The notes under the pieces are model-generated. The model was given only the letters and a program-made list of their open reading frames with translations. It did not search any database and was not told where the DNA came from. Below are positions 32,394 to 40,461 of a stretch of 64,000 bases of DNA, one piece after another. The first letter of the stretch is position 1; every line of letters begins with the position of its first letter. The stretch is from positions 62,001 through 126,000 of the forward strand of contig NZ_CAJYTI010000011.1 of NCBI RefSeq assembly GCF_913777625.1. Reading direction: 5' to 3'. The position numbers and the translations under genes were made by a program. The DNA comes from an uncultured Sphingomonas sp. (GTDB taxonomy: Bacteria; Pseudomonadota; Alphaproteobacteria; Sphingomonadales; Sphingomonadaceae).

Positions 32394-33287
32394 TCAGCCC
32401 AGCATCGCCTGCAGCGCGGGCGAGATTTGCTCGACGACGCGCTCCCCGTCGCGCGTGACCATGTGCACGGCGAGTCCCTGCCGCTCCGCCAGCGTCATGC
32501 CCGCAGGCCCGAGCACGGTGAGCGCCGTCGCCCAGGCATCGGCCCGCATCGCCTCGCGGTGCAGCACGGAAACGGAGACGACCTGGTTGTCGATCGGCCA
32601 GCCGGTGCGCGGGTCGATCGTGTGGGCATAGCGGCGCCCGCCACGTTCGAAGAAGCGGCGGTAATCGCCCGAGGTCGCGACCGACAGGCCATGCAGCGCG
32701 ACCCGCAATGGCGCCAGGGTGATGCCCGGCACCGCCTCCAGCTCGACCCACCAGGGCTGGCCATCGGGCTTGATGCCTTCGCCGCGGAGCTCGCCGCCGA
32801 TCTCGATCAGGAAATCCTCGATGCCGAGCGAGACCAGCCGCTCGGCCACCGCGTCGACGGCATGGCCCTTGGCGATGCCCGAAAGGTCGATCTGCACGGC
32901 CTCGCGCCGGCGGATGCGGCGGGCGTCCGCATCGAATTCGAGATGGCGCACGCCGGACATGTTGCGCGCCTCGCCGATCGCATAGGCGCCCGGCAGATCG
33001 TCGCGCGGGCCGGCGGGGCCGAAGCCCCACAGATCGGCGAGCACGCCGGCCGCAGGATCGAACGCGCCGTCGCTCAGGCGGTGCACGTCGAATGCCGCGG
33101 CCAGCACCCGCACCGCCTCGGGCGACAGTGGGTGCCAATGGCCGAGCATCCCGCGGTTGAACCGGCCGATCCGCGATCCGCTCTCCCAATGGCTGAACTC
33201 GGCGATCATCCGCGCGAGCACAGCCTCGACGGTCTCGCGAATGTCCTCGGGAGGATCAACGACGACCAGGCGCCAAGTGGTGCCCAT
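32394..33287 (-). CDS. apbE: FAD:protein FMN transferase (ApbE); true start may lie upstream near 33380
   Basis: MGTTWRLVVVD; SHWESGSRIGRFNRG; IDLSGIAKGHAVDAVAERLVSLGIEDFLIEIGGELRGEG; HTIDPRTGWPID. Confidence 0.93.
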   Translation of the reverse strand: MGTTWRLVVVDPPEDIRETVEAVLARMIAEFSHWESGSRIGRFNRGMLGHWHPLSPEAVRVLAAAFDVHRLSDGAFDPAAGVLADLWGFGPAGPRDDLPGAYAIGEARNMSGVRHLEFDADARRIRRREAVQIDLSGIAKGHAVDAVAERLVSLGIEDFLIEIGGELRGEGIKPDGQPWWVELEAVPGITLAPLRVALHGLSVATSGDYRRFFERGGRRYAHTIDPRTGWPIDNQVVSVSVLHREAMRADAWATALTVLGPAGMTLAERQGLAVHMVTRDGERVVEQISPALQAMLG

Positions 33288-33385
33288 GGTCGCCCCGCCG
33301 AAGGTGGCGACGGGCGCAGCCGAGCGGCGCCGGTGGAATGCCGCCGGCGACAGGCTCTCGGGTACAGCGATACGCGGTTCTACAA

Positions 33386-34270
33386 TCAGGGGGCCAGTAC
33401 CTCCAGCGTGGTCGTGTAGCTCACACGACGGCCGGAGGAAACGCCTGCCATGCCCTGCGGGCCACCCATAGCGGGACGCGCGGCGGCGCCCTGCGCCTGC
33501 GGACGCGGGCCTTCGCCCTCGGGCTGCGGGGCGGTGGGGGTGACGTTGATCCAGTACATGCCGGCTTCCGGCCACTTGATCGTCACCTTGCCCTGGGCAT
33601 CGGTGCGCAGGTCCAGCTGCTTCTGCGCCGCACGGTAACGGCCGTTGCCGAGAATGGTGGTGACGTAGAGGCCCGCTGCGGGCTTGCCGTCCAGGAGGAA
33701 CTGGAAGGTCGCCGGCTCATTCGAGACGAGATCGTTCGGATGCGTCACCGGCACCAGTTCGATGCCCTGGCCGGTCGGCTTGAACACGGTGTTGGTCGGC
33801 GCACCCTGGGTCACGAAGATCTCGTTGCGGGCCAGCATCTCGCTGGTCTGCACGTCGGTCGCACCGGCGGGGATCACGCTCGCCAGCTGCGCCTTGGTGG
33901 TGCCGCGCGGGATCATCTTGGTCTCGCCGTTCAGCGTGTAGCGGCCGAACACGCCCTGGTTCACCACCGCGATGCGATAGGTGCCCTGCTGGGTGAGGTG
34001 CACGTCGAAAGTGGCGCGGAACTGGCCGACATTGTGATGCTCGGCCTTGCCCTCGCTGCCGTCGGGCTGGGTAATCACGGGGAGCACGCCGAGCGGGCGG
34101 TGGTCGAAATAGAAGAGGTCGTTGGACACCGCAGCGTCGACCGTCACCCAGTTATCGGTGCCCGAGACGACCGTCGAGGACGGCAACAGCCACATGCGAT
34201 GGGCGATCGCGGCGGGAGCGGCGAGCGCCGCGACGGCGGCAACGGCGAACAGCGGCTTGCGGAACTGCAT
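33386..34270 (-). CDS. DUF4198-like periplasmic protein
   Basis: 294 aa; signal peptide ...AAPAAIA then HRMWLLPSSTVVSGTDNWVTVDAAVSNDLFYFDHRPL; FKPTGQGIELVPVTHPNDL. Confidence 0.82.
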   Translation of the reverse strand: MQFRKPLFAVAAVAALAAPAAIAHRMWLLPSSTVVSGTDNWVTVDAAVSNDLFYFDHRPLGVLPVITQPDGSEGKAEHHNVGQFRATFDVHLTQQGTYRIAVVNQGVFGRYTLNGETKMIPRGTTKAQLASVIPAGATDVQTSEMLARNEIFVTQGAPTNTVFKPTGQGIELVPVTHPNDLVSNEPATFQFLLDGKPAAGLYVTTILGNGRYRAAQKQLDLRTDAQGKVTIKWPEAGMYWINVTPTAPQPEGEGPRPQAQGAAARPAMGGPQGMAGVSSGRRVSYTTTLEVLAP

Positions 34271-34287: not shown

Positions 34288-34812
34288 TTAGCGCTTGAGC
34301 GTGAACGAAACGGCGCCGAGCTCGCTCGTGCCCTTGGTGGTGGCGGTGGCGCTGCTGCCGTTCCAGCTGAACGGCAGGCGCACCAGATCCCGGCCGCCGA
34401 CTTCGCGCGCGGCTTCCACCACCAGCGTGTACTGGCCCGGTATCAGCGCGGGCATGCCGCCCTTGCCGGCGACGAGGCGCAGCTTCTGCACGCCCGGCGC
34501 GCGGGTGGCGCCGCTGATGCCGTCGGCCGGGAAGCTCATCGTCCGCCCCGAGGCGCGCCACCACTGGCGCACGTCGTGCAGCCACTTGGTGCCTTCTCCG
34601 CCGCGCTTGTCGACATCGTACCAGACCGAGAGCGTGCGGGGCGCCTGCCCTTCCTTCTCGAGCCAGACGGCGACATAGGGCTTGTGATATTCGGCCACGC
34701 GCATGCGCGGCAGTTCGATCGACAGATCCATGGTCTGGGCCGCCGCCGCGTTCGGCAGCAGCGCGCCGGCGCCGAGCGCGGCGGTGGTCAGTCCGGTCAG
34801 GCGAAACTGCAT
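34288..34812 (-). CDS. DUF2271-like periplasmic protein with an ApbE-type flavinylation motif
   Basis: 174 aa; signal peptide; VWLEKEGQAPRTLSVWYDVDKRGGEGTKWLHDVRQWWRASGR...DGISGATRAPGVQKLRL. Confidence 0.82.
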   Translation of the reverse strand: MQFRLTGLTTAALGAGALLPNAAAAQTMDLSIELPRMRVAEYHKPYVAVWLEKEGQAPRTLSVWYDVDKRGGEGTKWLHDVRQWWRASGRTMSFPADGISGATRAPGVQKLRLVAGKGGMPALIPGQYTLVVEAAREVGGRDLVRLPFSWNGSSATATTKGTSELGAVSFTLKR

Positions 34813-34821
34813 GAAACCCCC

Positions 34822-35463
34822 TTAATGGATGAGGAACAGCGCGATCAGCGCAGGAATGGCGAGGCCGGCCGCGACGATCGGCCAGGTGCTCTTGCGGTGC
34901 TTGGCGTGCATCCACAGCAGCACCAGTCCGGTGAGCGTGAAGACCAGGCAGGCAAAGGCGAACACGTCGATGAAGGTTTTCCACGTCGTGCCGGCGTTGC
35001 GGCCCTTGTGGAGATCGTTGAGATAGGCGATCCAGCCGCGCGAGCTGATTTCGCTGGTCACCTTGCCGGTGGCGCGATCGATCGCGATCCAGCCGTCGCC
35101 GCCCGGGCGCGGCTGGGCGAGATAGATCTCGTAGGGCGACCATTCGGCGACGCCCTCGGCCGACATCCTCAGGTTGGCGCGCAGCCAGCCCGCGACCGGG
35201 GCCGGCAGCGGCTGCTTGGCATCGGGCTTGTCGTCCGGCTTGACCAGCGGCAGCAGCGCCGGCGGCAGCTGGGCGGCGCGGTCGACCGTCTTCGCGCTGC
35301 CCTCGATGTCGGCAGCATGGTTGAGCGTGAAGCCGGTGATCGCGAACAGCAGCAGCCCGACCAGGCTGATCGCCGAACTCATCCAGTGCCAGGTATGGAG
35401 CTGCTTGAGCCAGAAGCTCTTGCGGCTGCGCTTGCGCGCGGCAGGCGGGGACGGGGCGTGCAT
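34822..35463 (-). CDS. PepSY-associated TM protein
   Basis: MHAPSPPAARKRSRKSFWLKQLHTWHWMSSAISLVGLLLFAITGFTLNHA; C-terminal TM pair with HAKHRK. Confidence 0.82.
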   Translation of the reverse strand: MHAPSPPAARKRSRKSFWLKQLHTWHWMSSAISLVGLLLFAITGFTLNHAADIEGSAKTVDRAAQLPPALLPLVKPDDKPDAKQPLPAPVAGWLRANLRMSAEGVAEWSPYEIYLAQPRPGGDGWIAIDRATGKVTSEISSRGWIAYLNDLHKGRNAGTTWKTFIDVFAFACLVFTLTGLVLLWMHAKHRKSTWPIVAAGLAIPALIALFLIH

Positions 35464-35673
35464 CAGGCTGGAACGATCTCGACTGCGGAAACGAAGCGCC
35501 GCGATAACGCGAACCATTCGCAATTACAACGGCCGAAAATGTAACAGGATGTCGCCGGTCGCACGGCGCGGCGGAGCCGGCGGAAACGCAGCGTTCGCGA
35601 TCCTATGCCCTGGTTTGTCTGGGCGGGAGCGGCGCCAGCGGCTATCCCCGTCGCAACAACACGGAGACCGACG

Positions 35674-37629: not shown

Positions 37630-40461
37630 TTAGAAACGGAATCGCACCCCGGCGCTGAAATACCGGCCCTCGTACCGCGTATCGATCGGGTAATATTGCG
37701 ACTCGTTGAAGTAGCGATAGTTGCTGAATGGCTGCGCGAGGATGTTGTTCACCTCCACGGTCAGCGTGATGTTCTCGACCGGCGTGTACGATCCCGAGAA
37801 ATCAAGCCGCGAGATCGGCCGCACCTGCTGGCCGGTATAGGCCGCATCGTTCGAGTTACGGCTGTAGAAGTCGACATAGGAGCTGCGATAATTGTACGAT
37901 ACACGCAGCGAAACCTTATCGCGCTCGTAAAAACCGCCGAGGTTGTACGTCCACTTCGACAGGCCGGTCAGCGGCACCATCGCGCGCGCCTCGCCCAGCG
38001 CCTTGGGCAGCTGGTTCTTGGCGTCGACATAGGTCAGGTTGGCCTGCGCGCCGAAGCCGCTCAGCCAGCCGGGCAGGAAGTCGAAGAAGCTCTGGGCCGA
38101 AACCTCGAAGCCCTTGATCTTGCCCGTACCTGCATTTTCCGGGCGGCTGACCTGGATCAGGCCGAAGGTGGGGTCGTTGACGTCGCGGGTGTAGCTGCTG
38201 ATGAAGCCCTTGAGATCCCGGTAGAATAGCGCACCGCTGACCGCGCCGTTCCTGCCGAAATAATATTCGATCGTGGCGTCGTAATTCTTCGAGGTCAGCG
38301 GCTTCAGGTCCGGGTTGCCGCCCGAGCCGAACGCGGCGTAGCGCGCATTGCTGCCGGTGCCGGTACCGAAATCGGTGTTGCGGCTGATCGTGAAGGCCGG
38401 ATTGAGATCGCCGAAGCTCGGCCGCGTGCGCGTCATGGTAAAGCCCAGCCGCGCCTGCAGCCCCTGCATCAGCTTGGCGCGGAGGCCGAAGCTGGGCAGC
38501 ACGTCGACATAGTTCTGCCGGTTGACGTTCGTGACCGAGGTGACGGTGTCGACCTTGGTCACCGGATCGGTCACCGTCACCTTCGACGTGCCGACATAGC
38601 GCCCATCGGTGTTGACGATGCGCACGCCGAACGAGCCGTCGATCGGGATGCCCACGTCGAAGGCATAGCTGCCCTGCGCATAGGCCGCGTAGCTCGATTC
38701 CTTCGAGTAGAAGCCGCCATAGGGATCCATCGGGATCGCCTGGGTGGCGAACTTCGCCAGCGCGTCCTTATACCCTTGGTCGTTCGGATTGGCCGCGACG
38801 ATCTTCTGCAGCGACGCATAGGAGAGCTGGCGCAGCGCCTCGGCATTGCTCTGAATGGCGTCGTAGGAAGGCATCAGCCAGTTGCGGAACGGCGGGCCGT
38901 CGCCGCGAAAGCCGTCCTGCACCTGCTCGAGATTGCCGGTCGGCAGGCTGGCGAGCGGGATGCTCAGCGTCGGCGTGTAGGCGTAGCGATTGCCCTGCCG
39001 CTTCTTCGCATCGCGATCGGTGGCGCGGAGGCCGAACTTGATCTTCGGCAGCCACTGGACATCGGTTTCCAGCGCGACGTCGCCCCGCCACTGGATGCCC
39101 GCGCCGGTGACGTAATATTCCTTCTGGTAGAAGCCGCGCCATACATAGTTGGCGGGGTTGGTCATGTCGTAATTGCCGAGGTCGAACCACGACGACTTGT
39201 TCTTCTCGAAGATCACGTTGACCGGCGGCGCCGCGGCGGTCTGGCCGTCGAGGCTCGACTCGTTGTTGCCATATTCCGAGAAGGTATAGGCAAAGTCGCT
39301 CGAGATCACCGCGCGCCCGGTCGTCCAGACGAAGCCGCCGGCGGCCTGGTAGGTATTGGTATAATCCCGCGTGGTCGAGCGGAAGGTCTCTGCCGGATAG
39401 CCGCCGGTCTTGCTGATGCTCACCAGCTTGTTCGGCTGGCCGTCGACCCGGACGATGTTGAACAGGTTCGGTGGAACCTCCACCCCCGCAGCGTTCTTCG
39501 GCGCGGCGCGGAGCAGCGACACGTCGAAGCTCTCGGTCGAACCCTGGTTGCGATAGGCCTGCCACAGCCCGTCGACATAGATTTCGAGATTGTGCGCCGG
39601 CTTCCACTGGAACGAGCCGTTGACCGACGGCCGCTCGCGCAGCCCGCGCGGATAGTAGAGGCCGACGCTGTACGGCAGGCGGAAGTCGGCAGCCTGGCCG
39701 GCCGGCAGCGTTGCCTTGCTGTTCGCCACCGGATCGACGCCGCCATTGGTGTAGCGGATCGCGTTGTTGAAATAGAAGCGGTTGTAGGCGACGTTGACCA
39801 GCGCCCCCATCTCGCCGATCGGCGTGTTCCAGCGATCGCTGATCAGCAGATTGCCGTTCGGGTTCGTCTTCTTCGACTGGTCGTTGTACGAGGCGCGGAT
39901 CGCGCCGGCGATCTCCAGCCCCTTGAAATCGAACGGGCGGCGCGAGCGCACATTGACCAGCCCGGCCAGGCCGGGCTCGATCAGTTCCGCCGTCGCCGAC
40001 TTGTATACCTCCAGCGCCGCCAGCGCGCCCGCGGGAAAGTCGTGCACCTGCACGGTGCGGTTCTCGGCAGTGAAGATCTCGCGCCCGTTGAACGAGGTGC
40101 CCACGTCCGGAAGGCCGCGGATGAGGATTCCCGAGGCTTCGTCGGCATAGCGATTGACCTGCACGCCCGGCAGCCGTGCGAGGCTCTCCGATGCGTTATT
40201 GTCTGGCAACTTTCCAATGTCCTCCGCGACGATCGCGTCGAGGATCGATTCCGAATTGCGCTTGAATTCGCGCGCGGAGGCAAGGCTGGCGCGAATGCCG
40301 GTAACCAGGATTTCTTCTTCCGCCGCCGCGCTAGGCGCCGACGCCGAGGTGCTATCCTGGCCAGAATCTCCGGGATTTGCGTTCGATTGTGCCCAAGCCG
40401 GCGACACGCTCGCCAGCGTGGCCGCGGCTACGCCCAACAACAGAACCTGCTTGTAAGACAC
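37630..40461 (-). CDS. TonB-dependent receptor
   Basis: 943 aa; signal peptide; EEILVTGIRASLASAREFKRNSESILDAIVAEDIGKLPDNNASESLARLPGVQVNR; C-terminal aromatic VRFRF. Confidence 0.96.
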   Translation of the reverse strand: MSYKQVLLLGVAAATLASVSPAWAQSNANPGDSGQDSTSASAPSAAAEEEILVTGIRASLASAREFKRNSESILDAIVAEDIGKLPDNNASESLARLPGVQVNRYADEASGILIRGLPDVGTSFNGREIFTAENRTVQVHDFPAGALAALEVYKSATAELIEPGLAGLVNVRSRRPFDFKGLEIAGAIRASYNDQSKKTNPNGNLLISDRWNTPIGEMGALVNVAYNRFYFNNAIRYTNGGVDPVANSKATLPAGQAADFRLPYSVGLYYPRGLRERPSVNGSFQWKPAHNLEIYVDGLWQAYRNQGSTESFDVSLLRAAPKNAAGVEVPPNLFNIVRVDGQPNKLVSISKTGGYPAETFRSTTRDYTNTYQAAGGFVWTTGRAVISSDFAYTFSEYGNNESSLDGQTAAAPPVNVIFEKNKSSWFDLGNYDMTNPANYVWRGFYQKEYYVTGAGIQWRGDVALETDVQWLPKIKFGLRATDRDAKKRQGNRYAYTPTLSIPLASLPTGNLEQVQDGFRGDGPPFRNWLMPSYDAIQSNAEALRQLSYASLQKIVAANPNDQGYKDALAKFATQAIPMDPYGGFYSKESSYAAYAQGSYAFDVGIPIDGSFGVRIVNTDGRYVGTSKVTVTDPVTKVDTVTSVTNVNRQNYVDVLPSFGLRAKLMQGLQARLGFTMTRTRPSFGDLNPAFTISRNTDFGTGTGSNARYAAFGSGGNPDLKPLTSKNYDATIEYYFGRNGAVSGALFYRDLKGFISSYTRDVNDPTFGLIQVSRPENAGTGKIKGFEVSAQSFFDFLPGWLSGFGAQANLTYVDAKNQLPKALGEARAMVPLTGLSKWTYNLGGFYERDKVSLRVSYNYRSSYVDFYSRNSNDAAYTGQQVRPISRLDFSGSYTPVENITLTVEVNNILAQPFSNYRYFNESQYYPIDTRYEGRYFSAGVRFRF

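Follow-up and report, generated by a model that had tools for sequence, protein, structure and literature searches.

Results

Gene organization of the locus

The window, which is the whole stretch of 64,000 nucleotides analyzed in the present study, derives from an uncultured Sphingomonas sp. and carries, in one row on the minus strand, genes assigned by Pfam to PF16357, PF10029, PF10670, and PF02424. The features of this operon are listed below in the direction of transcription.

35503-35529, strand not given: Fur-box-like block with the inverted repeat GCGAA-CCA-TTCGC at 35509-35521
34822-35463, minus strand: PepSY_TM_like_2 membrane protein (PF16357, E=9e-74), counted from the ATG at 35463, with an open reading frame that reaches the TTG at 35523
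34288-34812, minus strand: DUF2271 protein, the predicted flavinylated subunit, with a signal peptide (residues 1-25) and a small beta-rich domain
34495-34524, minus strand: putative flavinylation motif DGISGATRAP within the DUF2271 protein, based on translation, a homologue alignment, and a published precedent (PMC8238504)
33386-34270, minus strand: DUF4198 secreted protein (PF10670, E=2e-53)
32394-33389, minus strand: ApbE flavin transferase without an export signal (PF02424, E=2e-77)

The first three genes are separated by gaps of 9 and 17 bases, and the last two overlap by 4 bases, provided that ApbE begins at the CTG codon discussed below. An apbE gene had been placed two genes downstream of the DUF2271 gene on the same strand by an earlier sequence-only reading, in which the strand was unnamed; this arrangement was borne out, with the DUF4198 gene sitting between the two and all four genes on the minus strand. 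No family was assigned by NCBIfam to the DUF2271, PepSY, or DUF4198 proteins, and no NAD- or flavodoxin-type reductase domain was present in the operon.

Regarding the PepSY protein, six histidines (H23, H26, H49, H152, H186, and H213, numbered from the ATG at 35463) were invariant across 21 relatives and appear to be suited to the ligation of b-type heme. A profile search with this protein found no solved structure. The block upstream of its gene was nearly unchanged among related sphingomonads, and the inverted repeat matched the classic Fur consensus at 13 of 19 positions, whereas shuffled sequences reached a mean of 9.3 and a maximum of 11. A TonB-dependent receptor gene (37630-40461) lies upstream in the orientation of the operon; pirin and hydrolase genes, encoded on the opposite strand, stand between the two.

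The window ApbE aligned to the FAD:protein FMN transferase of PDB entry 5mgy (E=3e-69). In the sphingomonad ApbE frame, there was no ATG, GTG, or TTG near the conserved N-terminus. A CTG codon that overlaps the DUF4198 stop codon as CTGA at 33386-33389 was shared by the window with seven close Sphingomonas loci, and the same overlap recurred in three more distant loci. Translation of apbE from a CUG start, with translational coupling, is likely.

The DUF2271 protein and its motif

Minus-strand translation of 34288-34812 yielded a protein of 174 aa, the assignment of which to DUF2271, as previously proposed, was upheld by a match to PF10029 with E=1.1e-44 (151.9 bits against a cut-off of 27.3, covering positions 2-135 of 136). 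The predicted signal peptide was also found and was typical in its N-terminal sequence (MQFRLTGLTTAALGAGALLPNAAAA, followed by Q). The motif DGISGATRAP was confirmed to occupy residues 97-106, with the codon of D97 beginning at 34524, that of P106 ending at 34495, and that of the candidate attachment residue Thr103 at 34506-34504.

In an AlphaFold model of the mature domain (mean pLDDT 77), beta sandwich-like strands were accompanied by one helix, and residues 66-74, which lie directly before and extend into the motif, had pLDDT values below 50. A Foldseek search of this model against the PDB gave no match below E=0.03, with C2 and Ig-like sandwiches as the best, and a sequence search for a solved relative of the protein found none.

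Conservation of the attachment residue

The homologue set consisted of 27 close relatives, 57 strong DUF2271 places from a sample of 299 genomes of the phylum, and the window protein itself; 74 of these, including that of the window, were aligned with one iteratively built profile, and 11 divergent ones were read by eye. Threonine or serine occupied the position of FMN attachment in 85 of 85 homologues. Among the 74 aligned proteins, it was threonine in 73 and serine in one, while the divergent subgroup carried serine in 11 of 11, with a motif that reads (D/N/S)G.[ST]GAS. The residues ahead of the attachment site were more variable than the usual motif allows (SGAT, TGAT, SSAT, TSAT, SGPT, TGPT, and isolated forms, TQPT among them).

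Conservation of the motif had been suggested as a check in genomes with and without a linked apbE. A dependence on linkage was rejected because the terminal threonine or serine was invariant in both groups. Alanine was replaced by proline within the motif only where ApbE is linked or fused (15 of 54 such loci, compared with 0 of the 20 others; kinship is uncorrected in this comparison, and two of the 20 lie on cut contigs), as expected if the enzyme and substrate co-evolve.

In the DUF2271 subgroup L075-L086, GAS replaces GAT, and 9 of 11 members are linked to an ApbE without a signal; the large neighboring frame seen in L076, L077, and L086 encodes, as judged by eye, a PepSY protein joined to a part that resembles a flavodoxin/FAD reductase. 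Weak PF10029 matches were considered as new substrates and, with one exception, rejected, since the sequences, judged by eye, resemble FlgD hook-cap proteins. Such matches in L088, L090, L091, L093, and L094 apparently lie within flagellar FlgD proteins, which suggests that DUF2271 and FlgD have a common Ig-like fold. The exception, in L089 (4506-5552), is a DUF2271-like protein that has 349 residues and a membrane anchor; it combines a weak PF10029 match with the sequence DLDGVTGAT and is a possible further substrate of ApbE.

Co-occurrence of DUF2271 and ApbE

ApbE was found in 56 of the 56 sampled genomes in which a DUF2271 match exceeded the cut-off. In the family to which the window belongs, eight genomes possessed both proteins and eight possessed neither. 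The genome of the window contained one DUF2271 protein and one ApbE, and lacked any match to FMN_bind, NqrB/RnfD, or DUF3570, which leaves DUF2271 as the only recognized ApbE substrate there. In 26 genomes, among them each of the eight from the window's family, the linked enzyme was the sole ApbE, and the threonine or serine of DUF2271 was retained in every one of the 26.

Export signals of linked and unlinked ApbEs

Export signals were assessed from the highest hydropathy of any 12-residue stretch among the 60 residues preceding the catalytic core, and from a lipobox pattern. Among 60 linked unfused ApbEs, a mean hydropathy of 1.9 was reached by one and a lipobox by none, the window ApbE likewise lacking it; absence is judged here by these rules and not by SignalP, and the sphingomonad frames start at a codon other than ATG, GTG, or TTG. 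In contrast, the 20 unlinked ApbEs from DUF2271 genomes all had an export-type, lipoprotein-like N-terminus, with 20 reaching a hydropathy of 1.9 and 18 showing the lipobox pattern. In 22 of the linked ApbEs, an in-frame stop codon lies 45 codons or fewer upstream of the core, and thus no long signal was missed there. The N-termini of the linked Caulobacter ApbEs, such as MTRVLVPQLTEPPARPIGG, were unlike signal peptides, and three ApbE-DUF2271 fusions carried a signal peptide at the N-terminus. An N-terminal segment of the form R-[VI]-[LA]-[IVM]-P was present in 39 of the 60 linked ApbEs (loci L003-L123), but in none of the 20 unlinked ones. In an unrooted ApbE tree built by a quick method, the signal-less linked enzymes were all placed to one side of a single branch (51 rows, SH-aLRT 97).

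Regarding the presumed substrates, 70 of the 71 unfused aligned DUF2271 proteins had a Sec-type signal peptide (by hydropathy, with a threshold of 1.5). Tat export was rejected, since a pattern search for a twin-arginine motif found none in the DUF2271 signal peptides.

Discussion

The flavinylation of DUF2271 proteins proposed for this locus is already published and is not new. DUF2271 was identified as an ApbE substrate by Méheust et al. (2021; PMC8238504), and experiments with the DUF2271 protein of Amantichitinum ursilacus showed that the cognate ApbE flavinylates it on the last residue, a threonine, of [S/T]GA[S/T], a modification that was abolished by the replacement of threonine with alanine (PMC8238504). 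In the same study, clusters of PepSY, DUF2271, DUF4198, and ApbE were regarded as likely iron reductases that are Fur-repressed in Shewanella and Caulobacter. The window operon shares with this PepSY system all four families (PepSY_TM_like_2, DUF2271, DUF4198, and ApbE), the motif, the attachment residue, and probably the iron/Fur context, but differs from it in lacking an NAD- or flavodoxin-type reductase domain and in the missing export signal of its linked ApbE, a trait that we did not find discussed in the PepSY section of PMC8238504.

A close parallel is the CC_3059-3063 locus of Caulobacter crescentus (CCNA_03155-03159; PMC3751524, PMC11870441), in which the homologous genes occur in an identical order and the DUF2271 protein is about 55-61% identical to that of the window; in the Caulobacter loci examined, ApbE is also without a signal. 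Expression of these genes rises strongly when iron is limiting and when fur is mutated (PMC3751524), and their disruption lowers fitness in EDTA (PMC11870441). Regulation by iron and Fur has been demonstrated in Caulobacter and Shewanella, whereas the window offers a conserved Fur-box-like repeat. Caulobacter has an extra gene for a sulfite reductase-type flavoprotein, and a search with PF00667 (FAD_binding_1) found no counterpart of this NADPH flavoprotein in the genome of the window. Covalent FMN on a threonine of the same short motif is also known from the FMN_bind proteins NqrC and RnfG, from which the window protein differs in fold and family.

Considering the sequence comparisons together, the DUF2271 protein of the window is very probably flavinylated by ApbE at Thr103, and the operon is a confirmed, ordinary member of the published system, its oddity being the apparent location of the modifying enzyme. 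There is a good probability that it serves extracytosolic electron transfer in the published PepSY-like manner, with FMN attachment probably cytosolic. ApbE would transfer FMN from FAD to Thr103 in the cytosol, either ahead of Sec export or while it proceeds. The three-helix PepSY protein, predicted to bind heme as does the only PepSY-like protein with a solved structure, FoxB of P. aeruginosa (PMC11334425), would move electrons across the inner membrane to this FMN. The exported DUF2271 protein may then deliver the electrons to an acceptor in the periplasm, of which Fe(III) or a ferric siderophore is the most likely, with the DUF4198 protein in a putative accessory role. In the literature examined, we found no demonstration of iron reduction by DUF2271 itself.

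The sequence-only reading was correct on the family, the motif, the attachment residue, and the linked apbE. Its interpretation is to be qualified regarding the site of FMN attachment, which may be cytosolic and precede export, because no export signal is seen in the ApbE of the operon and the genome has no other ApbE. Cytosolic ApbEs are known from Klebsiella pneumoniae, which resemble the window enzyme as signal-less flavin transferases acting on D-x-x-[ST]-G-A-[ST] but modify a cytosolic fumarate reductase (review PMC12052999), whereas the apparent substrate in the window has a signal peptide and is exported. The signal-less linked ApbEs, their status as the sole ApbE in 26 genomes, and the Sec-type signals of DUF2271 point to flavinylation before or during export. 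Whether this extends to the DUF2271 proteins of the operon class, with a dedicated branch of signal-less ApbEs flavinylating them in the cytosol and covalent FMN in place by the time of Sec export, is in our estimation evenly balanced. We found no statement of the cytosolic flavinylation of DUF2271 before export in the literature, our coverage of which was incomplete.

It is conceivable, if rather doubtful, that flavinylation instead occurs in the periplasm as usual, as in the standard model of ApbE (review PMC12052999), with the enzyme exported by some route that its N-terminus does not reveal, such as a cryptic signal near the conserved R-[VI]-[LA]-[IV]-P segment or one read from an unrecognized upstream start. 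While the N-terminal segment common to so many linked ApbEs may be such a signal, no hydrophobic core of signal length fits in the 22 enzymes with a nearby upstream stop codon, and the Caulobacter N-termini argue against it. The cognate ApbE of A. ursilacus was termed 'signal peptide-truncated' in the methods of PMC8238504, which indicates that export was assumed for at least one linked ApbE, and this wording is the main evidence against the generality of cytosolic attachment. A very improbable alternative is that DUF2271 is a structural or ligand-binding partner with an unmodified SGAT and that a cytosolic ApbE acts on another protein, as in Klebsiella; the invariant threonine or serine in 85 homologues, the strict co-presence of DUF2271 and ApbE in the window's family, the lack of other recognized substrates in the genome, and the proven modification of DUF2271 elsewhere (PMC8238504) all argue against it. 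A chance match is next to negligible: although approximately six motifs of the form D-x-x-[ST]-G-A-[ST] are expected in a whole proteome of 1.25 million residues, the composition-based expectation in this protein of 174 aa is approximately 9e-4, and the alignment, in which the motif is kept at one position family-wide, already refutes it.

The motif itself adds one further genome to a known system. If cytosolic attachment is true, the flavinylation of DUF2271 would not need FAD to be exported to the periplasm, and a second route for the flavinylation of exported proteins would exist beside that of the lipoprotein ApbEs. For these bacteria, a simple answer that may be tested directly in Caulobacter is predicted by the signal-less ApbE branch dedicated to DUF2271, which supplies the only ApbE of at least 26 genomes in the sample.
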